Origin: Bacillota bacterium
Lineage (GTDB): Bacteria; Bacillota; Clostridia; UBA1381; UMGS1253
Reading direction: 5' to 3'
NCBI GenBank assembly: GCA_022706785.1
Contig: JAKJBW010000003.1
Span: 1-64,000 of the forward strand
Length of the DNA: 64,000 nucleotides
Of the stretch, positions 8,954 through 33,054 are shown piece by piece. Made by a program: the position numbers and the translations under genes. Each line of letters begins with the position of its first letter. The stretch's first letter is position 1. Under the pieces are notes generated by a model. That model saw only the letters and a list, made by a program, of their open reading frames with translations, did not search any database and was not told where the DNA came from.

Positions 8954-9448
8954 TTACCCATGAAAAAGATGTTCAAGATTTTTCATGTCAATTCTATCAA
9001 CTTCCCTCAATTCATAACCGCTATGAAACACCTTTTGAGCTTCGGCGGAAATACATGGTATGATCCTCCCATCAAACCGAGAGCAAGAAAACCATCTTGC
9101 TTCGAAATGATACCAACCCCCGTCCGGAGCGGCCTGTTTAGCACTACCGTCTTCATTGATGATCAAAGGATGTATATCTAAATAACCCAACTCAGGGTGG
9201 TGCAGTTCAATTCGCGACGGACTCCAATCCGTTATGATTTTATATCCCTTATCTTTTAACGCATCTAATAAAGCTTCCTCAAATCTACAATCAAAATCGA
9301 TGTCAATATCCCTGTGATCCCTGTTGTGTTTTCCAACGAGGATATCAACGCCCCATCCTCCATCAACCCAATATTTTACGTTTAAATCTTCCAAGAAATT
9401 CAAAACATCAATTAAGTTTTCTTTGCTTGTTATTTCCTTATTATTCAT
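8954..9448 (-). CDS. Lnu(A/C)-like lincosamide nucleotidyltransferase
   Basis: A 164-residue protein with the minimal nucleotidyltransferase fold: VKYWVDGGWGVDILVGKHNR followed by DHRDIDIDFD supplies the GG...D.D metal-binding motif. The later blocks LGYLDIHPLIINEDGS, PCISAEAQKVFHSGYEL and the final DMKNLEHL closely follow Lnu(A), which adenylylates lincomycin and clindamycin. Antibiotic resistance is likely but not proven from sequence. Start ATG 9448 is used because AAAGGAG precedes it; the longer frame begins at a TTG that contains that ribosome site. Confidence 0.8.
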   Translation of the reverse strand: MNNKEITSKENLIDVLNFLEDLNVKYWVDGGWGVDILVGKHNRDHRDIDIDFDCRFEEALLDALKDKGYKIITDWSPSRIELHHPELGYLDIHPLIINEDGSAKQAAPDGGWYHFEARWFSCSRFDGRIIPCISAEAQKVFHSGYELREVDRIDMKNLEHLFHG

Positions 9449-9502
9449 AAAAACTCCTTTGTTCAAATTCCTGTTTAGCTTCGCCTTATCGCCAGGTTGT
9501 TG

Positions 9503-10798
9503 TCAAACGCAGAACACCGCATACAGGGGCACGGACTTTATGCCATTTTCAAAACCGAAGTTTTTACCTGATATACGAATGGCATAGGCCGGCTTATATT
9601 TATCACAAAACATCATAAGGCTTTTGGAACGGATACGTTTTCCTGTTTTCACCTCAATCGGAATGATGTCGTCACCCTTTTGCAGTACAAAATCCACCTC
9701 GGCAACGCCGTCGCTTGTCCAGTAATAGAGGTGATACCCCTTCGACGCGAGGCACTGGGCAACATAGTTCTCGGTTATCGCCCCCAAAAATGAATTATCC
9801 GTCTCTCCGATCGAAAGGAGCACCTGCTGCGATATGCCGCTTTTCATAGTGAGCAAGCCCGTATCACTCATATACAGTTTAAAATTTGTCAAGTCGCTGT
9901 AAACTGATATAGGCATAAAGCCTTGTGAGATACGCTGACATTTGTTGATCACGCCCGCGAACGCAAGCCAGTCTATCGCCGCGCCGAAAATCGCGCTTGT
10001 TCCGCCTTTTTGCGCCAGCTTATACTGAAACTTTCTGTTGTCCTTCGCAAGCTGAGCCGGAATAGAGTTGTATGCGGCGCGGATTTTCACGCTTTCGGCG
10101 TTTGACGCGTACTTCGCCATGTCGGCGATATAGTCGTTGACCGCTTTATTCTGAACGTCCGGTACGGTCAGCAAACTGCCCGACGACTGATACTCCAGAA
10201 TTGCACGCGGCATACCGCCGATAATCAAGTACAGCTTATATAAATCCAGCGCCTTCTCATGCAGAGCGGCGGGCAGCGGCTCGCTTGAGTCAAACGATAT
10301 TCGTATCTCATCAGCCAGCCGACCCTCGCTTTGTGCCCATAAAAACTCTTCAAAATCAAATGGATACAGTGTCATGGAATCAACATTGCCTACAGGGAAC
10401 GAATACTGCTCACGGTTTATCGCCACACCCAGCAGACTTCCTGCGCTCACTATGTGGTATTCGGGCGTATTTTCGTTAAAATATTTCAGCGCGGTCAACG
10501 CCCGTTCACAGGACTGAATCTCATCCAAAATAACAAGCGTTTCTCCCGGAATGATGCGCTCTTGCGTTTCGGTTTCTAAGAATCTGATAATCCGTTCAGG
10601 TTCTATGTTTTCTGTAAAGTATGAGCTAACAGTCTGGTTGGTTTCAAGGTTCACATACGCGACGTTTTTATAATGCTTCTCCCCAAATTCACGGAGGATA
10701 TGGGTTTTCCCCACCTGCCTTGCTCCATACAGCAAAAGCGGCATGCGTCTTGGTTTTGTTTTCCACGCCAACAAATCGGCGGTAATTTTTCTTTTCAT
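9503..10798 (-). CDS. AAA ATPase with DUF4143 domain
   Basis: A 431-residue protein. An N-terminal AAA_14 ATPase carries Walker A (GARQVGKT, about residues 23-30) and Walker B (ETLVILDEIQ). The C-terminal DUF4143 half has a restriction-nuclease-like core: VAEVDFVLQKGDDIIPIEVK gives the D...E.K pattern. Such proteins are common in mobile islands and some act as toxins or defence ATPases; the role here is unknown. Start ATG 10798 (MKRKIT) follows GGGGAG; the longer frame to 10879 lacks a ribosome site. Confidence 0.8.
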   Translation of the reverse strand: MKRKITADLLAWKTKPRRMPLLLYGARQVGKTHILREFGEKHYKNVAYVNLETNQTVSSYFTENIEPERIIRFLETETQERIIPGETLVILDEIQSCERALTALKYFNENTPEYHIVSAGSLLGVAINREQYSFPVGNVDSMTLYPFDFEEFLWAQSEGRLADEIRISFDSSEPLPAALHEKALDLYKLYLIIGGMPRAILEYQSSGSLLTVPDVQNKAVNDYIADMAKYASNAESVKIRAAYNSIPAQLAKDNRKFQYKLAQKGGTSAIFGAAIDWLAFAGVINKCQRISQGFMPISVYSDLTNFKLYMSDTGLLTMKSGISQQVLLSIGETDNSFLGAITENYVAQCLASKGYHLYYWTSDGVAEVDFVLQKGDDIIPIEVKTGKRIRSKSLMMFCDKYKPAYAIRISGKNFGFENGIKSVPLYAVFCV

Positions 10799-11189
10799 AA
10801 AAGACTCCCCACTTTTCCAATGATTGGTTTTATTATAGCATAAGGAAATATTTACGTCAAGAAAAATCAAAATATACATATAAATTAAGAGGTAAAATGT
10901 GAGAGCTTAATCAAATGAAACGATAGGATCAGATTGATGTCGGGTCTGTGTTTGATGATTTTTGCGTGCAGGGGGGGATAGGTCGAGAGTGGTTTTGCAG
11001 GTAGTTTTCCGTTCGTGGGAATATGTCCAATGTATTTTATGACTTTATCCATTCTGGGAAACAAGTCCATGTATATTTATATTATCTTGCCCATCTCTGG
11101 TGGTATGTAACAATCTATTGGTGTTGCTCCGCTGAAAACAAATCGTTAAAATTTACACACCATGTAGTTGCACTTCCAGCATTCATGAA
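10799..11189. other. Gene-free stretch between cargo genes and the BREX operon
   Basis: About 390 bp. A 61-residue minus-strand frame (10885-11070) lacks a ribosome site and resembles nothing known. No clear terminator for the BREX operon is visible. It may hold decayed sequence. Confidence 0.5.
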
Positions 11190-12338
11190 TTAGCGGATTC
11201 CTAGGATCTTTGAGTAGGCATCATAAGCCACTGAAATTACTGTACCGACCTCATCTGGAGTGTTATATCTACCGTAAGAAATTCGAATCGCCGACTTAGC
11301 CTGTTGCTCTGAAAGCCCCAAAGCAAGAAGCACATGTGACGGCTCATCTTTGCCTGAAGTACAAGCCGAACTAGTGGATACACAAACACCCTTTAAATCG
11401 AGCAGATGCATCAGCGACTCACCCGAAACTCCGTCGAAGCCAAGATTGACCGTTCCGGGCAGACGATATGCACTATCTCCATTGATCCTCACAGAGGGGA
11501 TTTTTTCTTTTATGCCTTCTACGGTTGCTTTGATCATTGCACTAAGCCGCTCGGACTCATCAGCCATCGCGCCGATACTTTCCTCAATTGCGAACCCCGC
11601 CGATACGATACCGGCGACATTCTCTGTTCCGGCACGAAGCCCTCGCTCCTGTTCACCGCCGAATACCAAGGGGGATATATCTATCCCTGACCGCTTATAC
11701 AGAATACCTGTGCCTTTCGCTCCGTTGAACTTGTGAGCAGAGGCGGTAAGGAAATCCACATCAAGTCTCGAAACATCAACAGGGATATGTCCGACTGCTT
11801 GAACGGCATCGGTATGAAACAGAATGCCCTTACTTTTCAACAAACGTCCAATCTCCGCTATTGGCTGAACCGTACCAATTTCATTATTGGCAAGCATTAT
11901 CGACACCAGTTTGGTATAAGGTTTGATTGCCGTCTTAATATCTGCGGCCTCGACCAACCCTTTTGTGTTCACGGGTAGATAGGTAACCTCTACGCAGCTT
12001 CGTTCAAGGGCAAGGCAAGTATTCAGAACGGAGCGATGTTCGATGGCAGAGGTAATAACGTGCATTGGTTCGTTTTGAAATGTTCCCGCAACACATCGGA
12101 TCACCCAGCTATTCGCCTCTGAACCGCCGGAGGTGAAGGTAATTTCAGATGCATCAGCACCGATTGCAGCCGCAACTTGCCGACGCGCCTGTTCGATAGC
12201 TCTCTTTGCCTTCACACCAAGCGAATACTGACTGGAGCCGTTTCCGTATTGCTCGCGCAAGAACGGAAGCATTTTCTCAAAAACGCTATCAGATATTCTT
12301 GTCGTTGCTGCGTTATCTGCGTAAATCACGGTTCTCAC
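11190..12338 (-). CDS. Cysteine desulfurase (IscS/NifS/DndA-like), last gene of the BREX operon
   Basis: A 382-residue PLP enzyme of class V aminotransferase type. Visible are YADNAATT at the N-terminus, TSGGSEANS (about 70-78), HTDAVQAVGH, the PLP lysine Lys203 in SAHKFNGAKG, and the catalytic persulfide cysteine Cys326 in STSSACTSGKDEPSH. It releases sulfur from cysteine as an enzyme-bound persulfide. It lies 3 nt after the small cysteine-rich gene and on the same strand as the whole BREX-like operon. Operon membership suggests it feeds sulfur to BrxP, as DndA feeds DndC; a housekeeping Fe-S role cannot be excluded. Confidence 0.92.
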   Translation of the reverse strand: MRTVIYADNAATTRISDSVFEKMLPFLREQYGNGSSQYSLGVKAKRAIEQARRQVAAAIGADASEITFTSGGSEANSWVIRCVAGTFQNEPMHVITSAIEHRSVLNTCLALERSCVEVTYLPVNTKGLVEAADIKTAIKPYTKLVSIMLANNEIGTVQPIAEIGRLLKSKGILFHTDAVQAVGHIPVDVSRLDVDFLTASAHKFNGAKGTGILYKRSGIDISPLVFGGEQERGLRAGTENVAGIVSAGFAIEESIGAMADESERLSAMIKATVEGIKEKIPSVRINGDSAYRLPGTVNLGFDGVSGESLMHLLDLKGVCVSTSSACTSGKDEPSHVLLALGLSEQQAKSAIRISYGRYNTPDEVGTVISVAYDAYSKILGIR

Positions 12339-12341
12339 CTC

Positions 12342-12542
12342 CTAAAGAAACAATGTGCAACCTTGGTCTTTGAACTCGCTTATCTTTGCATAAAGGTCTT
12401 CCACGGAGACATCAAGGTGAGTTGCAAGGCAGTCAACACAAAAAAAACGTGAAGGATTTTTATCCAATAGCTTTTTATTAAGCCCAACGGCGTTCTTATC
12501 AAGTTTGCTCTCACACACACAGCATTTGGTTAATTTTCCCAT
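12342..12542 (-). CDS. Small cysteine-rich (probable zinc- or Fe-S-binding) protein of the BREX operon
   Basis: A 66-residue protein with CCVC near the N-terminus, a second pair CVDC (in FFCVDCLATHL), and a late single Cys (QGCTLFL). Four cysteines in two CxxC pairs suggest a zinc ribbon or metal site. The start ATG 12542 overlaps the brxL stop as TAATG, so translation is coupled. Its place between brxL and the cysteine desulfurase suggests a carrier or adaptor in sulfur transfer, which is inference. Confidence 0.75.
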   Translation of the reverse strand: MGKLTKCCVCESKLDKNAVGLNKKLLDKNPSRFFCVDCLATHLDVSVEDLYAKISEFKDQGCTLFL

Positions 12543-14050
12543 TACAAGTCCCACCTCACCGTGTATGTAGAGAAGCCGAGATTTCCATCAGGGAACATAC
12601 CCGGATTAACGAATCTCATCTGCTTCAAGACCGTCTCCTGCATACTCTTGGCGGGGGTCAGACAATACTTGTCAAACTCCTGTTTGAATTTCTGAGTTCG
12701 GATAAGAGGACTATCTGCGTGCGGGAAAAATAACTTCAAGTAAGCCGTGCAAAGACGGAAAATGGCTTCTTTTTCACGCCCTGATGTGTCCCCTGTAGCG
12801 GCTTTGACATCGACAAGTTCCTCTACCATTCCGCGATACTTCATCGTTTCCGGTGTGCTGCGTAAGAGGTGCATAATCTCAGTGAAGTATTCCGAGTTCA
12901 ATGCCCAGTCATTAATAAACATCCGTGGGGAAAGTGCAGGGACAAATTGTCCGGGTACAAAGCCGTGGATTCTTTGCAGCAAGGCGCTGTCTCGGAAAAT
13001 CGGGTTGATGTCGCCAATCATATCTTTGTCACTATCCATATTCTCGTATGCGATGTTGCCAAGAAAAACTATGCCCGCTTCCCCGTCAATGCGAGTGCCA
13101 CCTACGGTCACATAGCCATCTTCCATATAGCCTTTCAGTATCCCCGCCATTTCTTTGTCGTTGGCGAACTCAATGGATTTAATCTCGTCGACGGCAATAA
13201 AATCATTGCAGGTAACCAGACCTTTGGCTCGCGCTCCGGGGCGGCGGTCTATGAACAGCATAGTGCGGCTTACCTGACCGCCTGTGAGCAGCCAGCCATA
13301 CTTGCTGATTTTGCCGAACATATATGACTTGCCCGTTTGTTGCGGCGCAAGTTCGATAAGGTTCACTCGTGGCTGAATGAACGGCAGCAACCGCGTCAGC
13401 ATCGTGTGCTTAGCTTTCCAAATGTCGCGGTCTATCCAACTCTTACGGGCAAAGCCATCCGGGTTATAATCGATTGCACCGAGCAGAATTCCCATCCACT
13501 CTTCAACTTCAAAATGGGTTCTCGCCTCACGAAAATCATCAAGGCGCACCTTATACGGGCAGAAATTTTTGAAATCAAGCAGGGTGAATCGACCGTTATT
13601 CTTACCGATTTCCGGTGGCATATAGCCAAGTTTAATCAGGCCCCATCCTCCGGCTTCACTGATGAGTTCGTCTTTGATTCTGTTCCACACATAGTCCTCG
13701 ATGATGGTGTGGGAGTGCGAGAAACCGAGCGAGGGTATCTCGAAGCTGTAATAGTTCGAGTTGGAGTTAAAAGACACATTGACCTTGGCGAGAAAAGGAC
13801 GTGTTTCACCCATAGTCCTTGCCTCGTCCTCAAGCCGCTCCTTTTCGCTGTGAGGCGGGATAATCGTCGCAACGTAGTTGCTAAGCGAATCTATGTTGTC
13901 CACAGTCCCGTCAGCACCGGTCCTGCGTTTCAGAATCCAGTCGCGCAAGAAAGCTTCTATCTTAGCCGCCTTAAACATCGACATAACGGACGGGTCTTTA
14001 AAAACCGTGGTAGAGGGGAAATATTCCCTCAATTTATTGACATCGTACAT
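12542..14050 (-). CDS. brxL: BrxL-like AAA ATPase (short form)
   Basis: A 502-residue protein with BrxL-type order: an N-terminal domain, then Walker A APQQTGKS (235-242), Walker B in CNDFIAVDEIKS (281-292), and arginine-bearing blocks INPIFRDSALLQRIHGFVPG and LSPRMFINDWALNSEYF. BrxL proteins form DNA-translocating rings in BREX. Longer BrxL proteins carry a Lon-protease-like C-terminal domain; here the protein stops after the ATPase and helical region, so that domain is missing. The gene follows pglZ by 14 nt and precedes the small Cys protein with an overlapping start. Confidence 0.85.
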   Translation of the reverse strand: MYDVNKLREYFPSTTVFKDPSVMSMFKAAKIEAFLRDWILKRRTGADGTVDNIDSLSNYVATIIPPHSEKERLEDEARTMGETRPFLAKVNVSFNSNSNYYSFEIPSLGFSHSHTIIEDYVWNRIKDELISEAGGWGLIKLGYMPPEIGKNNGRFTLLDFKNFCPYKVRLDDFREARTHFEVEEWMGILLGAIDYNPDGFARKSWIDRDIWKAKHTMLTRLLPFIQPRVNLIELAPQQTGKSYMFGKISKYGWLLTGGQVSRTMLFIDRRPGARAKGLVTCNDFIAVDEIKSIEFANDKEMAGILKGYMEDGYVTVGGTRIDGEAGIVFLGNIAYENMDSDKDMIGDINPIFRDSALLQRIHGFVPGQFVPALSPRMFINDWALNSEYFTEIMHLLRSTPETMKYRGMVEELVDVKAATGDTSGREKEAIFRLCTAYLKLFFPHADSPLIRTQKFKQEFDKYCLTPAKSMQETVLKQMRFVNPGMFPDGNLGFSTYTVRWDL

Positions 14051-14064
14051 CTATTTCTCCCTCC

Positions 14065-16122
14065 TTAAATGAGACCTTCAAATTCATCGACCACATCGGC
14101 GGTAGTCTTTTCGCCGAGTTGTTTTGGGACTTCTGCTACGGCGTTTTTCGTAAACACCACGATGGGAACAAGCCGCTCCTCAAGCGTCGCACCGCCGTGC
14201 AGTTCATAGAGCTTGCCGCCCATTTTCGGTAATCTGTTATATCCTCGCACAATCCAGTACGTTTTTTTTGTTTCTGGAAAATATTCTTGTTCTAATTCTG
14301 GCGGACGAGTGGCTCCTTGCGGGGCAAGTGAATACCGCCAATCGTCCGGCTGTCCCTCCCACGGCAAGGTTGTGCCTTTGCCCTCATTGTGGGCGATTAC
14401 GGCAAGTCGAGAAGCACCATGGTCGGCTGTTACTACAACGCGGGCAAATCGGGTAAGCCCATCGGCAATACGGTTCATAATCTCTGTTTCGAATACCCGC
14501 AGGGTTTCCGCAAAATTCCGCTCCGGTATAGAGACCTCGTGCTTTGCCGCTCCATTATGAACAATATTGTCAATACTTTTTATTCCAGGCAATATCCGAG
14601 CCTCGTCCCACTTTATCGGATTAAATATAGTTTCGGTTGGCAGTTTGGCGGTTACAACAGACTGTGACTCAATGTTCATACCACGACGTTTTGCCAATGC
14701 AAGAAATAGCGGCATATATTCCGCACCCATTGCGTCTACTACGAGCAGTGCAACATCAGATTGTGTTTGCAACTCAGCCATAATAGCGTCGCGGGTAGGA
14801 TATGTCTTTGGGGCAACAAAGTCGTAAGCTCGTTTTACAAAGCTGTCCGTTATGCTACCCGAAATCTTATGCCTGCGGTAATCCTTGAAATATGCAGTCG
14901 TTGCCGCATCCTCAAATTCGAAGGCGGAGGAAAAATAGTCTGCAAGGGTCGGAAACAGTTCCCCATACTCTTTGGGAAGGCCATAGGATAAATCTTCTTT
15001 AGAAGCACGGCGAACGATCTCAACGCGCTCCGCATTTGTGCCGCAGTTGAGGAATTGCAGAGCATCGTCCGATTCCTTTGTTTGCCCGATAAACTCTACA
15101 ATCAGCGACTCATAATCTGCGCCGATGGCTTTAAGAGCTTCCGCTCGTTCAGTAGCATACTTTTTCGCGTCTACATCCGAAAGCACGGCTACCGCCGAAT
15201 CTACTATGTACTTCCATAGCAAGTTGTCGCGGGTAAGACCTTCGGATATCACATTTGCGATATATGAATCTCCCGGAAGCCGTCTGCGCAGTACCCAGAT
15301 ATGCGCAGGCCACAGGTTGTCGGCGGGAAGTTCAAGAAGGCGTTTTAGAGCAAGACGTGTGTTGATATTTCCAACGCCAAACAAAGTCTCAAGATAAATC
15401 TCAGGACTTTTTCCGCTCTTAGCCGATTCTGAAAGCAATAGCTCTAAGGTAGTGTCGTCCAAATCGGTATCCAACTCGTAAAGCTGCGCCGCAATATCGC
15501 GAGTTTCGAGCATAAACGAAACCGCATTACCGATGCCCGCTTGTTTGTCAGTTAAATCTGGTAAAATGAGCGTATAGATGCCGGAAGGTTCATACTGGTC
15601 GAGTTGATCGAGCAATTGCTTATAACCGACGAGACCGCCAGATTTAACCCACTTGTCTGAATATGCCATTATACGGAGTGCCTCAAGTTCCTCCTCGTTT
15701 CCTTCTATGAAAATAACACTGCGTGCCTCTTCATACCGAGGTACAAGATTCAAATTACTGTGAATGGAAAGCAGATAATCTGCGTTTAGAGCATTGTTGT
15801 CAAGCCTGCTGCGAAGTTCAGAAATAAACACAGTTGTGCTTTCAGTATCAAGCAATGCCAAATAAGCGTCGAGCCCTATCACCAATGCGCGTCCGTTTAA
15901 TGCTCCCACTTTGGTATCAACAGCACTCATCAGCACGTTCGGCATCGGCAAGCGCGTATCATCTTCCGAAAGGCAGTCCGCAACTTTAATAACAGTTGAC
16001 CCTTTGCTTTTGTGGTGGTTCAGCAACTGCGCGGCTGTCGTATTATTGGGGTAAACAATGATGCGCGGCGCATTCAGGTTGCTGAATGTCTGTTTGAAAT
16101 ACCTGTTAAGTGTATATGCCAT
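14065..16122 (-). CDS. pglZ: PglZ-family alkaline-phosphatase-fold protein (BREX)
   Basis: A 685-residue protein. The C-terminal PglZ domain, of alkaline phosphatase fold, has the metal-site motifs LLVVDAMGAEY (about 459-469), KLPTETIFNP (about 493-502), VVVTADHGASRL (about 562-573) and LHGGATLEERLVPIVVF. The N-terminal half is helical and typical of BREX PglZ. PglZ is the shared core protein of all BREX types; in other types it works with BrxX/PglX. Start ATG 16122 follows GGGAGG and lies 2 nt after the brxC stop. A start at 16137 would overlap brxC and lacks a ribosome site. Confidence 0.92.
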   Translation of the reverse strand: MAYTLNRYFKQTFSNLNAPRIIVYPNNTTAAQLLNHHKSKGSTVIKVADCLSEDDTRLPMPNVLMSAVDTKVGALNGRALVIGLDAYLALLDTESTTVFISELRSRLDNNALNADYLLSIHSNLNLVPRYEEARSVIFIEGNEEELEALRIMAYSDKWVKSGGLVGYKQLLDQLDQYEPSGIYTLILPDLTDKQAGIGNAVSFMLETRDIAAQLYELDTDLDDTTLELLLSESAKSGKSPEIYLETLFGVGNINTRLALKRLLELPADNLWPAHIWVLRRRLPGDSYIANVISEGLTRDNLLWKYIVDSAVAVLSDVDAKKYATERAEALKAIGADYESLIVEFIGQTKESDDALQFLNCGTNAERVEIVRRASKEDLSYGLPKEYGELFPTLADYFSSAFEFEDAATTAYFKDYRRHKISGSITDSFVKRAYDFVAPKTYPTRDAIMAELQTQSDVALLVVDAMGAEYMPLFLALAKRRGMNIESQSVVTAKLPTETIFNPIKWDEARILPGIKSIDNIVHNGAAKHEVSIPERNFAETLRVFETEIMNRIADGLTRFARVVVTADHGASRLAVIAHNEGKGTTLPWEGQPDDWRYSLAPQGATRPPELEQEYFPETKKTYWIVRGYNRLPKMGGKLYELHGGATLEERLVPIVVFTKNAVAEVPKQLGEKTTADVVDEFEGLI

Positions 16123-16124
16123 AG

Positions 16125-19100
16125 TCAACCCTCCCAAAACAGCAACCCCAGTTCAGGACTCTCGTCAGCAAGCTGCAGGAGTTTATGCTTCAATTCTTCG
16201 GCACTCCTGCCACGAATCTTCTCCTTTATTTGGGGTGCTATTGTCCCTTTGTACTGGCTTTTAATAAATTCCGTGATGTCAGGAGTTAGCGACCAATTAT
16301 TCGGTTGATTACCGTGAGTTCTGCGCAAAAATTCAAGCAGTGGAGCGAGACCAATTTCGAACTTCTTATACTTTGCTGGCACTACATCGGTCATCAGGGC
16401 TTTTTGGCACTCGACAATACTTGCAGCTTTGACATCTTTCAGTATCTCAAGCATACTCTCCAACTTTGCGGCGGCGAATGTTTCCGGATGTTCTATAGCT
16501 CTCAGCAAGTCGGCGACATCAGGATAATTACCGAAAACATACTTTGCGGGCATACCATTGTTCATTGCCCATTCCGCAGGTGTTTCGGTTTGGGAAATCC
16601 GCTTCCACTCGCTTTTTATTTTCAGGACAACCGATTTCTTTGCAAATTCCTCAATCTTAACACGGATGTTTGTGAGGAAGGTGTTTTCATCCAAACCAAA
16701 GCCGCCAACCATTTCACTCAGTATGTCACAAAGATCGGAATCATCAAGCGCCACGTTATTAAGTTTAGATTTAAGAATCACCAACGATTCCTGTTTAGTC
16801 TGGTCAAAGAACAGACGCTGGATAAACGCAAAATTTTGCTGCAGTGCAAGCTTAATATCTTGTGCTGCGCCGGTTGACTGCAGGGCAGACAGGAAATTTG
16901 CCAGTGTCGGATAATACGCTTCAATAATCGACTTCGGTAGATGGTTGGTATCTGTGACAGCGACTTTAATCGCATCAAACACAGTTTTATACGAAACAAA
17001 GTCAATATATCCGCAAAGCGGCTTGGCAAGTGATATGACGTCGTACTCGCAGGACATATCATCAATTTCACGGCTAATATCCGCCTGTTTCCAAAGCCAC
17101 CCCGCTGTTTCCTGGCAGCGTTCAAGGATTGCGGTGCAATAACCATGCGACACGTCTCCAATTGAATTTGCCAATACGGAGAGTACGGGATTGGCCTTAT
17201 CAACGTAAATTTCAAAAGCGTTGAGGAAGTTTTCCCTCTTAACATAATCGGCGATAACTCCAACAATGTCGGGGCTTTTTATGATTATCTCACCGGCTTC
17301 TTTAACGGCATTGACTCTTTCCTCAACTTTGCCTTTGCTGCTCGTTGTTAACGCAGTGCAGATATTATTTATGAAAGTCTCAATTTCATTGAATCTGGGG
17401 TCATTAAGCGCACGGATATGTTCAGGTAGCACCCAAAGGGGAACTTTTGCTGATTCAGTCTCAACACGCCCTTGAATCTGGCTCAGAACGCTTTCAACCG
17501 TTGCATCCGCATTTGGTGTAGCCCCAAAAATTCCAGGTGCTTTCTCAATAAACTTCTTTTCTTCTTTGGAAAGACGGCAAATCAATTTCTCCTTTGTGCC
17601 GAGATTGTCCTTTCCATCGTCTTTGATAACCGCCTCAATAACCTCCGCTAAAGTATCTGCTTCAAGCGGACGGGTAAGTTGTCCATTCGTCCACTGGTAG
17701 CCTTTTTGCAGTATGTCACGCAAGCAATAGCCCAAGACGAACGCCGACAATGCGTTATAACGCAAACCAAACGGTGCGCGTTTGAGTTCGATATACACTT
17801 TTCGTATAGACTGTTGACCGCCTTTGCCTACGGTGTTCGCAAATTTTTTCTCGAATAGCGAGTGTATCGCACCTAGCGGGTGGTCGGGATTTGCCGCAAA
17901 CCAATCTAAATCATCGGTTAAGCCATCAGCTTTTAATTTGTTTATTAATGCAAGTGCAGGAGAATATCCTGTCATTAAGGACATACCTGCTTTGGCAAAG
18001 TTCTGCAAATGACTGTTGTTAAAATGTTCGTCCCTAAATCCGAGATGGTCAACGCTGTATTTCATCGTTTTGCGCACATACCTAGTGATTAATTCTTTAA
18101 ATGCGTTCCAGTTTGTATCGTTTACGACCACTTGTCCATTCTTAAACGAATACACCTTTATCCCGGCATCAAGTTTTCTCAACTCTCCAAACCAGTCATC
18201 TTCCATATCCTTAATGGATTTCTGGATTAAAGCGTCTTTATCTGAAATGTACTGAACATATTGCCGTACATAATCGTTCCAGAGATTTTTGTTTTTATGG
18301 CAAAACGATAGCGCAGGGAATGTAAACATCAGTATCCTATGGTCGCGAAGCTGGTTCAGCAAATCCTCGATTTTTTGCGGAATTGAAAGCTGTTCATCGT
18401 GGTCTTTTGCAACAACAAACCAAAGACAAACAGAGCCGTCGTCCTTGTAGATGCCGCTTGTGTAATTATCACGAGTTGATGGAGTGATGTTGGTCAAGTT
18501 CGTATGACTTGCATCTGTAACGCGAATATCAAACCGCCAAGAGCTGAATTTGCGGTAGTTCTTCGTGTGCTCTGTCAGCGCGTTCTCTACATTGGTGTGT
18601 AGAAGGTCGTAGAATTTATCCTGCCATTTTTCGATGTCTTCCTCTTTTACGGTCGTGGTTGCAAACAGGGCTATCTTGTCGTTTGTTACCGAAAAACAAT
18701 GCTTGCGCGCCAAATCATTAATGATGCCAACAGGGTCGGCTATCGTGCCGTCTCCCTTGAACGACATTTCTATGTTCTCCACGGTCGGTTTCAGCCTGTC
18801 GTGTCCGCCAGGAGCAAGTTTATCAAGCAGACAGAAAAGCAATACCGCTTTTAGGATGCGAAGTTCCGGCGCATCATCCGTTTGGTTTTGGAACGCGCGG
18901 TCGCGTGTTTGCTTGTAAAATGCCGCGATGTTCTTGATTTCATTATCAACACCGAGTTCCTTCCGATTGCCTAAGAAGAAGTTCCAAAGATAATCTACTG
19001 TTAGGTACTGCTTGTTAGGCACTTCCGGACCGCCCTCGCGAATAAAGTCCTGAAACGATGTATCATCCACTCCACCCTTAAGATACTCGAAAAAGCTCCG

Positions 19101-20270
19101 CTGGTTAGACTTCGCCTGCTCTGATAGATGTTTCAACAAAAATGCCGCCATTGGATGGATGGGCAGAATGTCATAGAAGCGGTCGCGTTTAGGATCGTCT
19201 GTTCCGTTAAATTTATCGATAATCGAACGTACAGAATCCCATAGCTCATCTTTGGCATTCTTCCATTCAGTGGCACATTCCGGCAAATCATTTATCGCCC
19301 GTCTCGCGAGATAAAAAGCCGTATCATTTGGCATCTGCAGATTGCAAAAATAGAAACGGTCGTTTGCTCGCAAATAATTTTTTGAGCCTTCTGCCATATA
19401 CGCTGTCAGCTGCATATGTGTTACCGGAACGAGAAAAAAGCGGTTCACGCCCGGCGACTCCGTCACATCCTCGAAGGTTTTCAACTGCTCCTTATTGGTC
19501 TCGATGAACGGGTGAAACTCGTCAAAGAGGTAAACAACACGTTGGAGATTGTTATCCTCTAAAATCGACTTAAGCCATTTACGGAACATAGGCACATCGA
19601 AAGTCAGAAAAATGCTGTCTTCCCGCAACACACGCTCTACATCGCTAAGTAATCTGGACGATGTTTCAGAACGGATCGCATTAACCAGTTTTTCCGTTGT
19701 GTTTATATTCGGAGTGAGGTAAGCGAGTTGGCTCTGAATTGAGTCACGGGTCTTGAAAAAATTGTCGCCCTCACGTTTAACACGTTCAATAATCGTATCA
19801 AGATTGGACATCGCGGGAATGGACATATTGCGTTCATTTAGTGCGGCTATGATTCCTTTTTGCAAGCGCACGAGCAGGCCATTACCCGGCCCTATGTTGT
19901 CCGCATTATAGTCATATACGACAAGTGTACCCTCTTGACGGCGATCAAAAAGAGCCTGTTCGAGGCTTTCGCGGTCGGATAGACCATTCATCGCATTTTG
20001 GGCAAACCATTTGCGAACACGCAGCTCGTCATCCATAAATAGCTTCTGTATGACAAGCGAGGCGTTGGATTTGCCCGTTCCAAGGTTTCCAGTTATCCAT
20101 ACTGATTTCACGCCAGAAGTTAGCACGGACAAAAGCGTTTTACAGATGGTCTCAAAATCTGTGTGTGGGTAAAAATTGAGCCAGCGGTCAGGAGTCTTAT
20201 TTATCTCCTCGCGAGTCATCATCGGACGATATTCGTCGTTTACTTTGAAAAAATCGGAGTAGTGTCTCAT
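16125..20270 (-). CDS. brxC: BrxC/PglY-like large P-loop ATPase (BREX)
   Basis: A 1381-residue ATPase. Walker A is GNLGTGKS (61-68) in VKSVWITGNLGTGKSNAS; Walker B is VVYLFDE (245-251), followed by FHPFIETNKEQ. The N-terminus RPMMTREEINKTPDRWLNFY is typical of BrxC. A long helical C-terminal region follows. BrxC is essential for modification and defence in studied BREX systems, where it is thought to bind DNA and use ATP. It sits between brxP (3 nt gap) and pglZ (2 nt gap), so the genes form one transcript. Confidence 0.92.
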   Translation of the reverse strand: MRHYSDFFKVNDEYRPMMTREEINKTPDRWLNFYPHTDFETICKTLLSVLTSGVKSVWITGNLGTGKSNASLVIQKLFMDDELRVRKWFAQNAMNGLSDRESLEQALFDRRQEGTLVVYDYNADNIGPGNGLLVRLQKGIIAALNERNMSIPAMSNLDTIIERVKREGDNFFKTRDSIQSQLAYLTPNINTTEKLVNAIRSETSSRLLSDVERVLREDSIFLTFDVPMFRKWLKSILEDNNLQRVVYLFDEFHPFIETNKEQLKTFEDVTESPGVNRFFLVPVTHMQLTAYMAEGSKNYLRANDRFYFCNLQMPNDTAFYLARRAINDLPECATEWKNAKDELWDSVRSIIDKFNGTDDPKRDRFYDILPIHPMAAFLLKHLSEQAKSNQRSFFEYLKGGVDDTSFQDFIREGGPEVPNKQYLTVDYLWNFFLGNRKELGVDNEIKNIAAFYKQTRDRAFQNQTDDAPELRILKAVLLFCLLDKLAPGGHDRLKPTVENIEMSFKGDGTIADPVGIINDLARKHCFSVTNDKIALFATTTVKEEDIEKWQDKFYDLLHTNVENALTEHTKNYRKFSSWRFDIRVTDASHTNLTNITPSTRDNYTSGIYKDDGSVCLWFVVAKDHDEQLSIPQKIEDLLNQLRDHRILMFTFPALSFCHKNKNLWNDYVRQYVQYISDKDALIQKSIKDMEDDWFGELRKLDAGIKVYSFKNGQVVVNDTNWNAFKELITRYVRKTMKYSVDHLGFRDEHFNNSHLQNFAKAGMSLMTGYSPALALINKLKADGLTDDLDWFAANPDHPLGAIHSLFEKKFANTVGKGGQQSIRKVYIELKRAPFGLRYNALSAFVLGYCLRDILQKGYQWTNGQLTRPLEADTLAEVIEAVIKDDGKDNLGTKEKLICRLSKEEKKFIEKAPGIFGATPNADATVESVLSQIQGRVETESAKVPLWVLPEHIRALNDPRFNEIETFINNICTALTTSSKGKVEERVNAVKEAGEIIIKSPDIVGVIADYVKRENFLNAFEIYVDKANPVLSVLANSIGDVSHGYCTAILERCQETAGWLWKQADISREIDDMSCEYDVISLAKPLCGYIDFVSYKTVFDAIKVAVTDTNHLPKSIIEAYYPTLANFLSALQSTGAAQDIKLALQQNFAFIQRLFFDQTKQESLVILKSKLNNVALDDSDLCDILSEMVGGFGLDENTFLTNIRVKIEEFAKKSVVLKIKSEWKRISQTETPAEWAMNNGMPAKYVFGNYPDVADLLRAIEHPETFAAAKLESMLEILKDVKAASIVECQKALMTDVVPAKYKKFEIGLAPLLEFLRRTHGNQPNNWSLTPDITEFIKSQYKGTIAPQIKEKIRGRSAEELKHKLLQLADESPELGLLFWEG

Positions 20271-20273
20271 TTC

Positions 20274-22661
20274 TTATTCCCCCAAAGTTAAGTTTACTAT
20301 GTCATCCAGCGAGTGCTTCTGCGGGTAAACCTCTAATCCGTCATTGCCGTGGGTAAACGTCGTAGAGATATAATCCGGGTAACGAGTGCGCAAGCCCTCG
20401 CATTGCTTCTTGAACGTATCTGGTGCGATGCCGAACGCCACGAGTGGAGAAACAAAGGTGGAATCCGCGTCAGCCGTGAGCAATTCTCGTACTGTAAAAC
20501 TGCCGCGCTCGGCAAGGTCGGCAATAAGGTATAAGCCGTAAAGGATGGTTAAAGGCTGTACGTCCTTTGCCTTTCGAGTTAATGCTATGACCTTTTTGCC
20601 TTTATACTCAGGCAACATCACAGCATTATTCTCTCCTCCGAGAGGTGACTCGTCAGCAGTATTTTTTAAAGCATCGAGACGGCGGTCTTTGGCGTTATTT
20701 GTAAGCGGGTAGCTTTCTTTCAAGGACTCCAGTAAGCTCTGGACATCTTTGCGTTCGTCGATTTCAGTAGAGACGCAATACCAGTTAATGAGTGGTGAAT
20801 TATTTACTAGTGCCACCCATACGAACTCCCAAGCTATTTCGCATGATGTTCCGTTCACTCTGAATAGTTCTACCAATCTCGTAGGTTTACGATCTTTCGT
20901 GACAATCAATGCCTGTGGAAACCATTTTTTTGTTGCATCGACCTTTTTATCGCCTATCGGATGTGTGCTGTCCCAATGGAAGAAGGTATCGCCGCGCTCT
21001 AATAATGCGTTAATAAACGCTTCTCTTAGTCCAAAGTTGTTGTAACGAGCGAACTCGTTCGCCACGCTGTTTGAATTTTCAGGTTTGTACATAGACCGAT
21101 ACCTCCAACATGAATTTTGTATTTCATAGCAACTGCGGCACTTAATACACTTGTCACCATTTATTTTTAACTTTCCATCTTTGGTAGTTATTGCGCCAAA
21201 ACTACACTCGGCTTCACAAGATTGGCAACCGACGCAACCCGATACTTTTTTTAATAACGTGCGCAATAGGGGCAAAATTTCGGTTTGCTCTACCCGTGAA
21301 TGGAACTCAAAACTAACCAAGCCACCGCCAGTATAAGGAGCGCGGTATACAAATGGTATTCCGTCATCAAGCGACTTGGGTAACTTCAGAAGTTGCCGTT
21401 CAGTTTCTCTCTCTTTTACGACTGTTCCGAGTGTTTTTATCCATTCATAGAACAGGTCCTTTTGAAAATGGGGGCTCTGGAATGTTGTTATAAGTCCGTT
21501 TGTTTCCTCAAGTGGAGGAGTAAGGAATTCCCTTAATACAATACCGCTCCTGCGTGCTTGCCAGTGCCGTTTGCCTATGTACTCGCTTTTTTCGGTAGCC
21601 GAATCGAAGTGTTTAGAACTCGTTCCAATAATAATGTCGCCATAAGGCTTCAGTTCTCTCGGATAAACTTTGTCAACGAACCACTCATACTTCTCCGACG
21701 ATTCTGGACACATCAAGCAACCCACGCGGGTCAAGCCCTTTTTGTAGGCGCAATTGACGATAAGGTCGTTGGCGAAGATATACAGCCATAACTCGTGCGC
21801 ACCCCAATCAAGAATCGGCATACGGTTCATCTGTGAGGCGTTCTTTGCACCGTCCGTGGCGTCTTCGTAAAACGAACGGCTGTAGCTCTCATCGCCGCGA
21901 ACGCCGACAAACGCCATAACCTTTATAGCCGACTTGCGCAGTTTCTTTTTAAGATACATCAACGCGGGGGTGCTTTTATGCACCGAACAGCACCACCGAA
22001 TTGTGCGCGACGGTGGGGCAAAGACCCTCCAGTTCTCAAGAGCAGACGTTTCCGCTTTGGCGGTGATAAACTCGCGCTCTGGGTAGCGAGTCTTAATCTC
22101 TTCCCAAACCTTATAGGTATCCGGCAGTTCCATATCGGTGTCAGAAAAAACAACCGGCACGGAAAGCGGCAACACTCTGTGGCAGATATCGAGCAAGGCT
22201 ACGGAATCCTTGCCACCCGAAAAAGCGATGTAGGCGATATCGCAACGCTTTATGCTCTCATCATAAAGTTCCTTAGTTCGGCGTTTTGCATCGGCGACAA
22301 CAATGTCCATTATTTTGGCGTTTGCCGCCACCATTGCCTCCACGTCCACCGGCTCAAGTTTCATCTTGCCGTCAAAGAATGTTTGTATGTTCAGTGGTTT
22401 GCCGTACTGTGTATTATTAAGCTGCGCTATTTTGCGCCCGCAGGGTTCACCTTTCTCGTCAATGTCTGCTATCAGATATGTATTCTTCATACCCCACATC
22501 AGCGGGCGAGTCTCGCGTCGGTCGTATTCAAAATAACGCCCAAGCCCAGTGAGTGAGAGCTCCGGAGCGAATACGGGACGTATTTCACTCGCCACATATT
22601 TTCCGGTCTGTGTGGTCAGCAGGTAACCGCGCGTTTTTTTATCAAAGACATATGAGTACAC
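20274..22661 (-). CDS. brxP: BrxP: PAPS-reductase/DndC-like protein with ferredoxin domain
   Basis: A 795-residue protein. The central adenine-nucleotide alpha-hydrolase domain has the PP-loop SGGKDS (148-153), a WCCSVHK motif (223-229), GVRGDESYSRS (253-263) and GCLMCPESS (314-322). The cysteine sets recall DndC, which carries an Fe-S cluster and puts sulfur in the DNA backbone. A ferredoxin-like 4Fe-4S segment follows: CVGCQSCEAEC (476-486) and CIKCRSC (505-511). The C-terminal third (FARYNNFGLREAFINALLER and on) resembles DUF4007-type regions. The GTG start lies immediately after the previous stop, with GGGGAGGT upstream. A PAPS-reductase-like gene in place of the methylase defines type 4 BREX. 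True substrate not shown. Confidence 0.9.
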   Translation of the reverse strand: MYSYVFDKKTRGYLLTTQTGKYVASEIRPVFAPELSLTGLGRYFEYDRRETRPLMWGMKNTYLIADIDEKGEPCGRKIAQLNNTQYGKPLNIQTFFDGKMKLEPVDVEAMVAANAKIMDIVVADAKRRTKELYDESIKRCDIAYIAFSGGKDSVALLDICHRVLPLSVPVVFSDTDMELPDTYKVWEEIKTRYPEREFITAKAETSALENWRVFAPPSRTIRWCCSVHKSTPALMYLKKKLRKSAIKVMAFVGVRGDESYSRSFYEDATDGAKNASQMNRMPILDWGAHELWLYIFANDLIVNCAYKKGLTRVGCLMCPESSEKYEWFVDKVYPRELKPYGDIIIGTSSKHFDSATEKSEYIGKRHWQARRSGIVLREFLTPPLEETNGLITTFQSPHFQKDLFYEWIKTLGTVVKERETERQLLKLPKSLDDGIPFVYRAPYTGGGLVSFEFHSRVEQTEILPLLRTLLKKVSGCVGCQSCEAECSFGAITTKDGKLKINGDKCIKCRSCYEIQNSCWRYRSMYKPENSNSVANEFARYNNFGLREAFINALLERGDTFFHWDSTHPIGDKKVDATKKWFPQALIVTKDRKPTRLVELFRVNGTSCEIAWEFVWVALVNNSPLINWYCVSTEIDERKDVQSLLESLKESYPLTNNAKDRRLDALKNTADESPLGGENNAVMLPEYKGKKVIALTRKAKDVQPLTILYGLYLIADLAERGSFTVRELLTADADSTFVSPLVAFGIAPDTFKKQCEGLRTRYPDYISTTFTHGNDGLEVYPQKHSLDDIVNLTLGE

Positions 22662-25094
22662 TTAGTTTGCTACCTCCCCAAAGATATTGTATTTCCACTC
22701 TCGGCGAGGTTCTGCTTTATAGAATGCGGTTATAAGCCGCCTATAAATATCCCAATCAGGCAGATTGTATTCCGCCTTGAAATTTACGCCCAGTTTAAGT
22801 GAAAGTGTTGTATGCAGAGCGTCTTGCGTCGGATCAAGCCCGATGTCGCTAAGCCGCTCCAAAGCCTCGGCAAGCACCTCTGAAAAGTTCTCCGGTAAGC
22901 CGAGCGCATCAAATGTCTGGTAACAGACGCTGTCGTTAATTTCGACGCGAATCAATTCGTCAACGGCATACTGTCTGATTATCTTGCCAAGTAAGTCGGT
23001 CGAGAACGCACAGAATTTGGTGTGCAAATCGTCCTCATTGCACGAGCCGTAATACTCCTCGTTAATAACGGATACGATTTTTGCCGCGACTTCCTTAAAT
23101 GTACTCCAAACCGCGCCATTGCTGTAACGCGCTATTCTGTTGCCAATATACGGGGCTTGAACGCAACGGATACCGCTCTTGCCGATTTGCTCGTAGAAGC
23201 TCTCGAAATCTTCCGCATTCCGTATGCAGTTTGGATTAACTTTTTTCTCATACAGCTTATAAAATTCAGGAATTTCAAAGCAACCATACTCTTCAAGATA
23301 GCTGTCGGCAAAATCAATGATGTCTTTGCGAATTGCGGCATTGGCAACTATGTCAAGTAAGAAGTAGATGCCATCATCTCTGCGGAACATTATGTGCTTT
23401 AGCGCCGACTGCATACGTCCGTCAATTTCCACGCCGGAGGAGCTTGAAAGAAGATTAACATAGGTCGTGTCAAAGCGAAAGCCCGAAGCATAGTTCTTGT
23501 TTAATGCATCGACCACAGCATCGGGAACGCTCGGTGCAGAGATAGCCACCGAATTCGCACTGAGCAACTCAGGGTAGTTTTCAACGAGAAACTCTTTTAG
23601 CATACGCAAGGAGCGAAGATACCCACGCGCAGAACCTGACGGATTGTTGGTTTGGGTCGGGTTATCCGTATAGAAACGCTCAATCGCATCATACGCACGT
23701 TGCAGACCATCATCGGCGGTCAAAGCTTCCTCAAGCGTTATACCTCGCTTGTTGTTATATAAATAGTAGGCATCCGAATAGTGCATCGTAACCGTCCCGC
23801 TGCTCCATTTGGGGTTATGCGTGATGAGCCACGCTCGAAACGTATCACGGACGATCTGTTGGGCAAACCGTGCGGAGTCGTCTTTAATTATGTTTATTGG
23901 TCGCAGTTCTCCTGCGCTTTGTTTCGGAACACATGTGATATTCACATCGTTAAGGTCGACGCCGCAAAACTTACAGAGCCTGCCTATCGTGAACACTAAA
24001 TCTTTTATGCTGAGGTTAACATTTATCCAATAGCCGTTCGAAAGTTGCCGCGCGGAAAATTTCGGTTTTTCTTTGATCAAAAACTCGCGTTCGCCGTTTG
24101 GATACGGGCTCGTGTGATATAACTCCATTGCTTTTGGCTTGCTCTGTAGAAAATCCTCTGTCAATGCAACAAGAATATCTCGCCAATTCCTGCCCGAGAA
24201 ACTCTTTCCGTCTACAATACAAGTTTGTGGGTCGCACCCCATGCAAAGTTCAGGGTGAGCAAAATCGACATGTAGTGGCTCTGTGGTAAGCTGCCGTGAT
24301 ATGTCTTTTATTGTTTTAGATGTCGATTCAATAACGGCTATTTGGTCATTATTTACAGGATGCCCGTTCTCTTCGAGATATTCTATATAACGCCTATATG
24401 CTGCTAATCCCGCTGAAAACTGGCCGTGCCCCAATGTTCTGTTTACATCGGTATAGTTTGGTGCCGCTTTAAATGCTGTCCACAGCTCATCGAATTCCAA
24501 CAAGGTGTGACATCCAAACACATTCCGGCTTTGCGAGGCTTCCAACATTAGCTTTCGGGGCGCATTACGTAAAGTGAACATATACGCTCGAACAACATTT
24601 TTTAAGTATAGAGTTCCGTTGGCGTTGGGCTGCGTAACCAACCAGGCGACAACAGAATCTGAGTTTATATCTTCTCGTATTGTATCAGATTCGACAGCCA
24701 CCACCCCATCATTTCTCTCGGCGATAGCTGTGATTTCTTCTTTAAGAGTAATCGGATTCTCCTTAAGAAACTTTGCATAAAGCTGCCCTGCAACTATGAA
24801 AACCTTAAAAGTGTCCTTTTGTATAACTCTCAGCAGTTTCTCATTTAAGATCCTCTGATAAACCGGCTGAAACATGCTGGATTTAGAGATCTCCCAAATG
24901 CTGCACGAAATCTTCTTGCTAATTACATACTCGGAAATCCTGTCAAGGCACGCTACAGCAGCTTGCGGAGAAAACTTTTTTGCATTGCCGACCGAAAGCC
25001 ACGCAACGAAAGCATCCCTCGTTGAAGCAGGTGTTGAGGAAGCCTGCTCTGCAACAGGCAATACGCTGCTATACGGATTGTTTATCATAGCCAT
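22662..25094 (-). CDS. Large BREX-operon protein of unknown function with a repeated AWL domain
   Basis: An 810-residue protein that I cannot assign to a named family. Three related segments, each about 90-150 residues, begin FVAWLSVG (about 28), VVAWLVTQ (about 147) and FRAWLITH (about 432) and end in helix motifs such as FIVAGQLYAKFLKENP, AAYRRYIEYLEENG and LRSLRMLKEFLVENYP. A cysteine cluster CMGCDPQTC lies between the second and third. The last 280 residues are mixed alpha/beta. It is the second gene of the operon, 20 nt after the HTH gene and directly joined to brxP, so it is probably a structural or recognition subunit. The repeats suggest a DNA-binding helical module. Confidence 0.8.
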   Translation of the reverse strand: MAMINNPYSSVLPVAEQASSTPASTRDAFVAWLSVGNAKKFSPQAAVACLDRISEYVISKKISCSIWEISKSSMFQPVYQRILNEKLLRVIQKDTFKVFIVAGQLYAKFLKENPITLKEEITAIAERNDGVVAVESDTIREDINSDSVVAWLVTQPNANGTLYLKNVVRAYMFTLRNAPRKLMLEASQSRNVFGCHTLLEFDELWTAFKAAPNYTDVNRTLGHGQFSAGLAAYRRYIEYLEENGHPVNNDQIAVIESTSKTIKDISRQLTTEPLHVDFAHPELCMGCDPQTCIVDGKSFSGRNWRDILVALTEDFLQSKPKAMELYHTSPYPNGEREFLIKEKPKFSARQLSNGYWINVNLSIKDLVFTIGRLCKFCGVDLNDVNITCVPKQSAGELRPINIIKDDSARFAQQIVRDTFRAWLITHNPKWSSGTVTMHYSDAYYLYNNKRGITLEEALTADDGLQRAYDAIERFYTDNPTQTNNPSGSARGYLRSLRMLKEFLVENYPELLSANSVAISAPSVPDAVVDALNKNYASGFRFDTTYVNLLSSSSGVEIDGRMQSALKHIMFRRDDGIYFLLDIVANAAIRKDIIDFADSYLEEYGCFEIPEFYKLYEKKVNPNCIRNAEDFESFYEQIGKSGIRCVQAPYIGNRIARYSNGAVWSTFKEVAAKIVSVINEEYYGSCNEDDLHTKFCAFSTDLLGKIIRQYAVDELIRVEINDSVCYQTFDALGLPENFSEVLAEALERLSDIGLDPTQDALHTTLSLKLGVNFKAEYNLPDWDIYRRLITAFYKAEPRREWKYNIFGEVAN

Positions 25095-25114
25095 TCCTCG
25101 ACCTCCTTTCGTGC

Positions 25115-25363
25115 TTAATCGTACTTTTTGCTATCGCTTTCTGACGCAGCCTCAATATCTGCTTCCGCATCAGCCGCCGTCCCAGACCGCAACCACTCAT
25201 CAACTTCGGAAATCTTAAACCGCCATTGCCGTCCGAGTTTATGTGCGGGCATACCCTTCTTGTTGATATACTGCAGGATAGTTTCACGGCTGACGCTGAG
25301 ATATTTCTCAATCGCCGCCATTGGCTTCCACTCTTCGAGATTCTCTATATTGTTTTTTTTCAT
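25115..25363 (-). CDS. Excisionase/MerR-type HTH protein, first gene of the BREX operon
   Basis: An 82-residue protein with the DNA-binding pattern WKPMAAIEKYLSVSRETILQ, Y-INKKGMPAHKLGRQWRF and KISEVDEWL, typical of the excisionase-family winged HTH. The tail is acidic (AADAEADIEAASESDS). The ribosome site GGAGG lies shortly before the ATG. As the promoter-proximal gene it may regulate the operon. It starts 20 nt after the end of a truncated zinc-hook ATPase fragment on the same strand. Confidence 0.82.
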   Translation of the reverse strand: MKKNNIENLEEWKPMAAIEKYLSVSRETILQYINKKGMPAHKLGRQWRFKISEVDEWLRSGTAADAEADIEAASESDSKKYD

Positions 25364-25739: not shown

Positions 25740-26089
25740 TTAATGCGTCGTACAACGCGGATATGTATTGACGGCCGGGACGAAAGTCTCTGCCAAGAAA
25801 TCGGCAGGGTCTGACGGGGTTCGTCAGATTTCATTAAATAGATATAAAAATACAGTATAAATTATATTACGAAATTCCACAAAAGTCAACATAATTTTGG
25901 ATTTTTAGCTTTATATCGTGTCTTATCAGCTTTTATAAGCTTTGAAAAGCGTAACTTGGCGTAAACCGATAAACGAGGCGAGTATACATCCCGCGAAACT
26001 TCTTGAAAAAAGTTTTTTGAATAGGAGATTACCTTTCCTATTTGACTCCTACGATAAGGACAAACCTGACAGAAAGACGGTGATTGACC
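25740..26089. other. Gene-free junction between BREX island and phage remnant
   Basis: About 350 bp. On the plus strand the frame ending VKTVLNASYNADMY (stop near 25769) may be the tail of a lost phage gene. Two short hairpins follow (CTCTGCCAAGAAATCGGCAG and CTGACGGGGTTCGTCAG, near 25790-25830), then AT-rich sequence without a supported gene. This is the likely seam where the island joined the phage genome. Confidence 0.45.
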
Positions 26090-29183: not shown

Positions 29184-29220
29184 TATATAATAATTTTAAC
29201 ATAAAAATTATTATATATTA
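29181..29220. terminator. Perfect AT-rich palindrome over the primase stop codon
   Basis: TAATATATAATAATTTT (29181-29197) and its exact complement AAAATTATTATATATTA (29204-29220) flank a 6-nt loop. The palindrome contains the TAA stop. It could end transcription in both directions or act as a DNA-unwinding element. Confidence 0.65.
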
Positions 29221-29352
29221 GGTAACCGGTAACCGGGTAACCCTAAATAATAGAGGTACGTGCGAAAGAAGTATTGTCTTCTTAATACGCGTGCGCGTGC
29301 GTGTATAATATAGTACCCCTCTAAAAACACAGTTACCGGGTTACCGGTTACC
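29221..29352. repeat. Inverted GGTAACC iterons around a Z-DNA-like centre (candidate replication origin)
   Basis: GGTAACCGGTAACCGGGTAAC (29221-29241) is opposed by GTTACCGGGTTACCGGTTACC (29332-29352), an inverted pair of triple GGTAACC-like iterons. Inside lie TAGAGG (about 29251) and CCTCTA (about 29317), and an alternating purine-pyrimidine run, ACGCGTGCGCGTGCGTGT (about 29287-29304). No gene is present. Iterons and AT-rich palindromes beside a primase gene suggest an origin; this is inference. Confidence 0.55.
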
Positions 29353-29720
29353 TTGCTTGTGTTGATACCCCGAGGGGCGGTCTGGATCTCTACGGCTTTT
29401 GCCTTCGTACAACGCCCCAGGGGCTTACGTAACATTCCGCAATATCAAGCCGATTATTTATCAAGTGAGTGATACAAGCCTCTGAAACCTGCACCATTGC
29501 TGGGATTTTAGGGGCTTGTTTATTGTTTCATCTTGGATTCTTGGTTTTTTCGCTCTTTTTTCAAGCTGTCCGGGGGATTGTAATAACATGGGGGCGCGGG
29601 GGCCATCGCCGCAAACGCCAGCAACGGCAGGGCTTCCGGCGATTTCCCTCTTGAAACCGTAATCAGACAAGCGTATTTTTGCATATATTATCAAGTGAAG
29701 GGATAGGAGGTGATGATGAC
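29353..29720. other. Gene-free stretch before the terminase genes
   Basis: About 370 bp between the iteron region and the small terminase start. No reading frame with a convincing ribosome site, no tRNA and no clear repeat was seen. Confidence 0.5.
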
Positions 29721-30254: not shown

Positions 30255-30256
30255 AA

Positions 30257-30625: not shown

Positions 30626-30632
30626 ATTGCTT

Positions 30633-30968: not shown

Positions 30969-30981
30969 AGGAGAAATTAAT

Positions 30982-31371: not shown

Positions 31372-31382
31372 GGAGCATGGGA

Positions 31383-33038: not shown

Positions 33039-33054
33039 CGGCGTGGAGGTGCTT

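Follow-up and report, generated by a model that had tools for sequence, protein, structure and literature searches.

The window analysed here, a 64,000-nucleotide stretch from a Bacillota bacterium (GCA_022706785.1, contig JAKJBW010000003.1), carries a minus-strand run of eight genes between positions 25363 and 11190, each of which is intact by gene-by-gene translation. The genes, in the order HTH82, U810, brxP, brxC, pglZ, brxL, CxxC70, and cysteine desulfurase, are separated by gaps of 20, 0, 3, -13, 14, -13, and 3 bp, and are given below together with two features that lie upstream of them.

25861 to 25889, minus strand: candidate operon promoter, TTGACT-N17-TATAAT, with 11 of 12 consensus matches and the best site of the region, where promoter-like sites are overall no more frequent than in shuffles.
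25383 to about 25736, minus strand: decayed piece of an ABC-three-component ATPase with a CPFC zinc-hook segment (26% identity, E 4e-5).
25115 to 25363, minus strand: HTH82, 82 aa, a MerR/excisionase-type helix-turn-helix (HTH) protein (HTH_17, E 5e-13), 20 bp before U810.
22662 to 25094, minus strand: U810, 810 aa, modular and predicted to bind DNA, with a 0 bp gap to brxP and kept before brxP in seven close relatives.
20274 to 22661, minus strand: brxP, 795 aa (PADLOC BrxP, 683 bits over residues 2-791; PAPS_reduct at 145-320).
16125 to 20270, minus strand: brxC, 1381 aa, an ATPase with Walker motifs (PADLOC BrxC, 857 bits, full length; SspC, 37 bits).
14065 to 16137, minus strand: pglZ, 690 aa, of the BREX-4 type (NF033445, 179.5 bits; model cut-off, 140).
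12542 to 14050, minus strand: brxL, 502 aa, with an N-terminal domain and an ATPase (BrxL_ATPase, E 1e-93; BrxL_N, E 6e-23; PADLOC BrxL, 527 bits).
12342 to 12554, minus strand: CxxC70, 70 aa, a candidate sulfur carrier with two CxxC pairs and a C-terminal GCxLF.
11190 to 12338, minus strand: cysteine desulfurase, 382 aa, DndA/SspA/NifS-like, the last gene of the operon (PADLOC DndA, 460 bits, and SspA, 454 bits; Aminotran_5, E 1e-83).

The features that place this operon in type 4 BREX are (i) a BrxP protein with a PAPS-reductase domain in place of pglX, (ii) a brxC/pglY ATPase, (iii) a PglZ of the BREX-4 kind, and (iv) brxL. The PglZ product scored 298 bits with PADLOC, in addition to its match with the NCBIfam model named 'BREX-4 system phosphatase PglZ' (NF033445), and BrxL reached 309 bits with TIGR02688, slightly under the NCBIfam cut-off of 329. 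Catalytic motifs are kept, namely SGGKDS in BrxP, GNLGTGKS and DEFH in BrxC, DAMG, TADHG, and HGG in PglZ, and APQQTGKS in BrxL, and none of the eight operon products contains a methylase domain by PADLOC, Pfam, or NCBIfam. The initial annotation had described the four core genes in one run without a PglX, closed by a desulfurase and a small two-CxxC protein, and it is borne out on each of these points. Moreover, the same cassette order recurs in seven other genomes (six Bacillota-type and one spirochaete), so the arrangement is not due to chance, and the operon is a real, complete, and intact type 4 BREX. In the order of its core genes and its lack of a methylase it resembles brxPCZL, as it does in its terminal cysteine desulfurase and small zinc-finger protein, which are described in PMC12839542; it differs in having U810 directly before brxP, a family that goes unnamed in the main-text sections considered of the published accounts. 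A decayed type 4 locus was also seen elsewhere (L054:3222-7807), with brxP shortened to 486 aa and followed by a serine-recombinase-like gene.

While the operon had rightly been called complete and intact, the 'lost upstream gene' that had been counted as part of it is not a BREX gene. This remnant resembles an ABC-three-component ATPase, its match lying beside an annotated ABC-three component system on the Enterococcus plasmid pEDNV, and is left over from a different defence system. HTH82 shows no alignment to the HTH protein of that system, by which we rejected its arrival with the remnant; because of this, and because it lies only 20 bp before U810, HTH82 is probably the operon's own regulator. 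It had no match in the relatives searched. An AGGAGG site precedes U810. Further upstream, phage-type genes (26628-35352; NrS-1 polymerase-like, terminase large subunit, and ParB-N6/N4 methylase) start just past the operon, which places the BREX beside a prophage. At its other end lie an AAA_14/DUF4143 ATPase (9503-10879; PADLOC candidate family PDC-S01, 558 bits) and an ORF matching the aminoglycoside-2''-adenylyltransferase family (8954-9466; E 1e-60). In one relative (L036:1-7300), conjugation-type genes precede the BREX, suggesting an integrative conjugative element as its carrier.

CxxC70 found no match in Pfam, PADLOC, or NCBIfam, and only chance-level matches among PDB sequences. We aligned the 17 homologues that align without doubt, and all 17 keep both C-x2-C pairs and a C-terminal G-C-x-L-F, giving five invariant cysteines. 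A zinc site needs no more than the two pairs, and PMC12839542 likens the small zinc-finger protein to HTH-type regulators; CxxC70 might thus be just a small zinc-finger/HTH regulator with no part in sulfur transfer, a reading whose odds we put a little under even. Because two pairs suffice, however, the fifth cysteine, which sits in the GCxLF tail close to the last residue, has no obvious structural need, and its gene both overlaps brxL and adjoins that of the desulfurase. A mobile C-terminal cysteine is the working part of some sulfur carriers, such as DsrC. The invariance of the fifth cysteine suggests that CxxC70 is a sulfur carrier, which may pass sulfur from the desulfurase to BrxP. In counts tallied by hand over type 4 loci with a readable region after brxL, CxxC70 was present in 19 of 25 (absent from 6); 11 of 24 have the desulfurase and 13 lack it. 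CxxC70 accompanies the desulfurase in 10 of its 11 loci, occurs without it in 8, and in L094 sits between brxP and brxC. Co-occurrence of this kind was a check that the initial annotation had proposed. This wider spread of CxxC70 would fit a carrier loadable by any desulfurase.

The product of the large gene before brxP, U810 (22662-25094), lay within the region that had been annotated as the BREX operon and is a member of the cassette, yet it had been left unmentioned. It has no match in Pfam, PADLOC, NCBIfam, or among PDB sequences, and none in plasmids or viral contigs; in phages, it gave two weak matches, each to single modules. The protein divides into two parts, as follows.

22671 to 23528, minus strand: C-terminal domain of U810, residues 523-808, tandem winged helices (AF2 pLDDT mostly 80-93).
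23550 to 25034, minus strand: variable N-terminal modules of U810, M1 (residues 21-115), M2 (140-245), M3 (272-395), and M4 (408-515), with approximate boundaries drawn by eye.

The C-terminal 286 residues are 39-92% identical among members, and their best Foldseek matches are tandem winged-helix proteins, namely UFL1/DDRGK1 and SelB. The N-terminal half, which AF2 models mostly at low confidence, was left without a structural reading, and it is here that the family varies. Module M1 is common to U810 and its relatives in L039, L091, L092, and L097; the L039 and L097 relatives retain M1 and carry a HARE-HTH domain in place of the remainder, the L041 relative lacks M1 and M4, and the L040 relative retains little beyond M3. 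Between the window and L039, brxP is ∼68% identical although the U810 modules differ. Family modules include a HARE-HTH domain, proposed as a reader of modified DNA in PMC10853773, a sigma-70 region 4 (L089, L090, and L110), an integrase-SAM-like module, and one shared with McrB. Modules M2 and M4 also occur at the front of McrB in L055 (4637-8166), a protein that has an EVE domain and is followed by McrC.

Close relatives (n = 7) were taken from a BrxP scan of GTDB genomes, and distant type 4 loci from two genome searches. All seven close relatives keep the order U810, brxP, brxC, pglZ, brxL, and CxxC70, with U810 broken or shortened in L035 and L036. A first HMM iteration with the whole of U810 recruited relatives partly through shared modules, so the C-terminal domain was next examined by itself. 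In other type 4 loci, the large proteins encoded immediately ahead of brxP form a second set, B (leave-one-out E values of 5e-61 to 5e-139), which aligned to the U810 C-terminus, set A, with an hhalign probability of 92.8 (E 4e-7, 215 columns; reversed control, 0.2). Further, the B profile recovers two A members at E 2e-4, so that the two sub-families are linked, at profile level only. Taken together, 20 of the 29 loci have a U810-type protein before brxP; in L089 the two genes are separated by a small one. That gene (L089:3363-4079) encodes a protein of 238 aa whose C-terminal CxxC...CxxC stretch looks HNH-like, and it has no significant Pfam match. Of the remaining nine loci, three have a sigma-70-like protein, incomplete in L099, and six have neither, and U810 is thus not strictly required. 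In searches independent of brxP, the A profile gave three matches in 399 genomes, all of them adjoining brxP, and six of the seven strong B matches adjoin brxP, the seventh lying at a contig end.

Weak B matches extend beyond BREX, to relatives directly before pbeA in the Pbe operons of four genomes (L111:4491-8453, L113:7041-9917, L114:7032-10502, and L115:9638-13045), in which PbeA and PbeC were assigned by PADLOC in a scan covering part of the genes. This position is what the window shares with Pbe (CxC ABC-ATPase/DndE) systems; in contrast, the N-terminus of the Pbe-linked relatives is much longer and the similarity is distant, and neither PbeA (HKD-SF2) nor PbeC (CxC ATPase) has a PADLOC match among the eight products of the window operon. 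The sections considered of PMC6459918 and PMC10853773 do not list such relatives among the Pbe genes that they name, and those of the CxC/Pbe survey name an HKD-helicase, a small protein, DndE, methylases, and MTaX1, without a U810 relative. Likewise, U810 is unnamed in main-text sections of the BREX survey PMC12839542, although its supplements or Yuan et al. may have it.

The main rival to a DNA-reading role is that U810 is a transcription regulator that turns the operon on in phage infection and stands outside the DNA-reading complex. Such a role would suit the first large gene of an operon, with a winged-helix array at its C-terminus, and in L093 (15627-17108) and L101 (2678-4123) the place directly before brxP, where U810 would be, is taken by a sigma-70-like protein that is complete from region 1.1 to region 4; the sigma-70 region 4 modules of the three U810-type proteins noted above point the same way. 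However, the great size of U810 and the exchange of its N-terminal modules, which recalls specificity proteins, speak against this, as does the sharing of one module with an McrB; relatives of U810 also stand before pbeA, and in the window a small HTH regulator of its own, HTH82, lies ahead of U810. We regard the regulator role as less likely and favor U810 as a candidate reader of a DNA mark, because its modules swap, its folds are of DNA-binding kinds, and it keeps the company of defence genes.

Phosphorothioation by gut BREX type 4 has reportedly been the subject of a study by Yuan et al. Among published families, brxPCZL is counted with those of phosphorothioate synthesis in PMC11931770, and section 34 of PMC12839542 places type 4 BREX with the phosphorothioate-based systems and reports that 255 of 457 taxa have a cysteine desulfurase. 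The interpretation in the initial annotation is supported in part: the idea that this BREX marks self DNA by sulfur and brings its own sulfur supply is right in kind but already published, and as a headline it is a rediscovery; the parts worth following are U810 and the five-cysteine carrier candidate CxxC70. What the present analysis contributes to the supply side is the ancestry of the desulfurase, which has its catalytic residues in place (PLP lysine in H-K at residue 202 and SSAC at 323). The window genome holds several further aminotransferase class V, desulfurase-like genes. In a tree of 10 operon copies and 13 other copies, from 7 genomes with type 4 loci, the operon desulfurases fall on one side of a single branch (support, 92/88; 93% of bootstrap trees), and shuffled labels require 7.7 changes on average. 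The one clade is drawn from Bacillota and Spirochaetota, and the housekeeping copies of such genomes fall apart from it, which, as judged from the tree, makes the desulfurase a dedicated gene inherited with the cassette and led us to reject a captured housekeeping gene. Nevertheless, roughly half of the loci lack the desulfurase, as counted above; five of the seven close relatives keep it. Because its presence is so patchy, housekeeping desulfurases can probably supply BrxP as well, a substitution for which PMC12839542 likewise argues.

The presumed recipient, BrxP, comprises (i) a PP-loop PAPS-reductase domain with a CC...CxxC motif (PAPS_reduct, E 4e-28 in Pfam, the only match in the whole window genome), (ii) an eight-cysteine ferredoxin-like region, where Fer4 matches are weaker and under the Pfam cut-off, and (iii) a putative DUF4007-like C-terminus; a DUF4007 (BrxA-like) element is commonly found fused to BrxP in type 4 BREX. 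In an alignment of eight sequences, Cys224, Cys225, Cys315, and Cys318 and the eight cysteines of the ferredoxin region are invariant. The pattern formed by the first four is familiar from APS reductases. The C-terminus is probably DUF4007-like, because profile positions 526-652 of BrxP match a Treponema protein annotated as DUF4007 (E 3e-5); the Pfam DUF4007 model itself, in a run without a positive control, matched nothing in the window genome, nor any other BrxP tested. The AF2 model of BrxP, at a mean pLDDT of 43, was too poor for use.

With 12 conserved cysteines in BrxP, the desulfurase and CxxC70 could instead serve Fe-S assembly in this protein and not DNA sulfur, and DndA can build the Fe-S cluster that DndC carries (You et al. 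2007, cited by PMC12839542). We consider this reading doubtful, since Fe-S assembly is a housekeeping task, for which the genome has several other desulfurase-like genes, and a dedicated, co-inherited copy better fits a sulfur donor; the two roles are, moreover, compatible. The window also shares with Ssp (SspABCD) a desulfurase, a PP-loop sulfurtransferase, a BrxC/SspC-type ATPase, and putatively a DUF4007/SspB-like element, and with Dnd (DndABCDE) a desulfurase resembling DndA (460 bits) and a PP-loop domain related to that of DndC. It differs from Ssp in that BrxP scores 683 bits against 56 for SspD, and BrxC 857 against 37 for SspC, and in having PglZ and BrxL where Ssp has SspE or SspFGH; unlike Dnd, it has no DndC (26 bits), and the operon lacks both DndD and DndE. 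Although BrxP scores merely 26 bits with the DndC model and 56 with that of SspD, it is highly improbable that the operon performs no DNA phosphorothioation and that BrxP acts on something other than DNA, for instance tRNA or a nucleotide signal, given that BrxP and BrxC match the PADLOC BREX models over their full length and that brxPCZL stands among the phosphorothioate-synthesis families of PMC11931770.

In our main reading, to which we give a probability of about 0.62, the operon is a type 4 BREX with a sulfur writer, a restriction side formed by PglZ and BrxL, and U810 as an exchangeable DNA reader. This model builds on the observed gene content and intactness, the co-inheritance of the desulfurase, the cysteines of CxxC70, and the conservation and module swapping of U810, and takes phosphorothioate writing from the literature; from these, we infer that CxxC70 relays sulfur, that U810 acts as the reader, and how the tasks are divided. 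The desulfurase would draw sulfur from cysteine and hand it to BrxP, possibly via the C-terminal cysteine of CxxC70. BrxP, with its ATP-activating PP-loop domain, its Fe-S centres, and its putative DNA-binding DUF4007-like tail, would together with the BrxC ATPase swap a phosphate oxygen of host DNA for sulfur at short sites. PglZ and BrxL, directed by U810, would act on DNA recognised as foreign or unmarked. U810 itself would attach to the BREX core through its conserved tandem winged-helix C-terminus and read sequence or modification with its exchangeable N-terminal modules. A bolder version, which we hold only tentatively and think less probable than the main reading, is that the U810 family is an unrecognised exchangeable DNA-reading subunit of both type 4 BREX and Pbe, made of a winged-helix base and swappable front modules and setting what is self and what is foreign, and that CxxC70 is a dedicated sulfur carrier.

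In summary, few BREX types have been studied as little as type 4, and the present locus offers a compact, intact set in which the presumed sulfur donor, a possible carrier, and the presumed writer occur in one operon. Within this set, U810, encoded next to the writer, is the candidate for target recognition that lends itself best to testing: if it sets specificity, then swaps of its front modules should change the DNA that is attacked.
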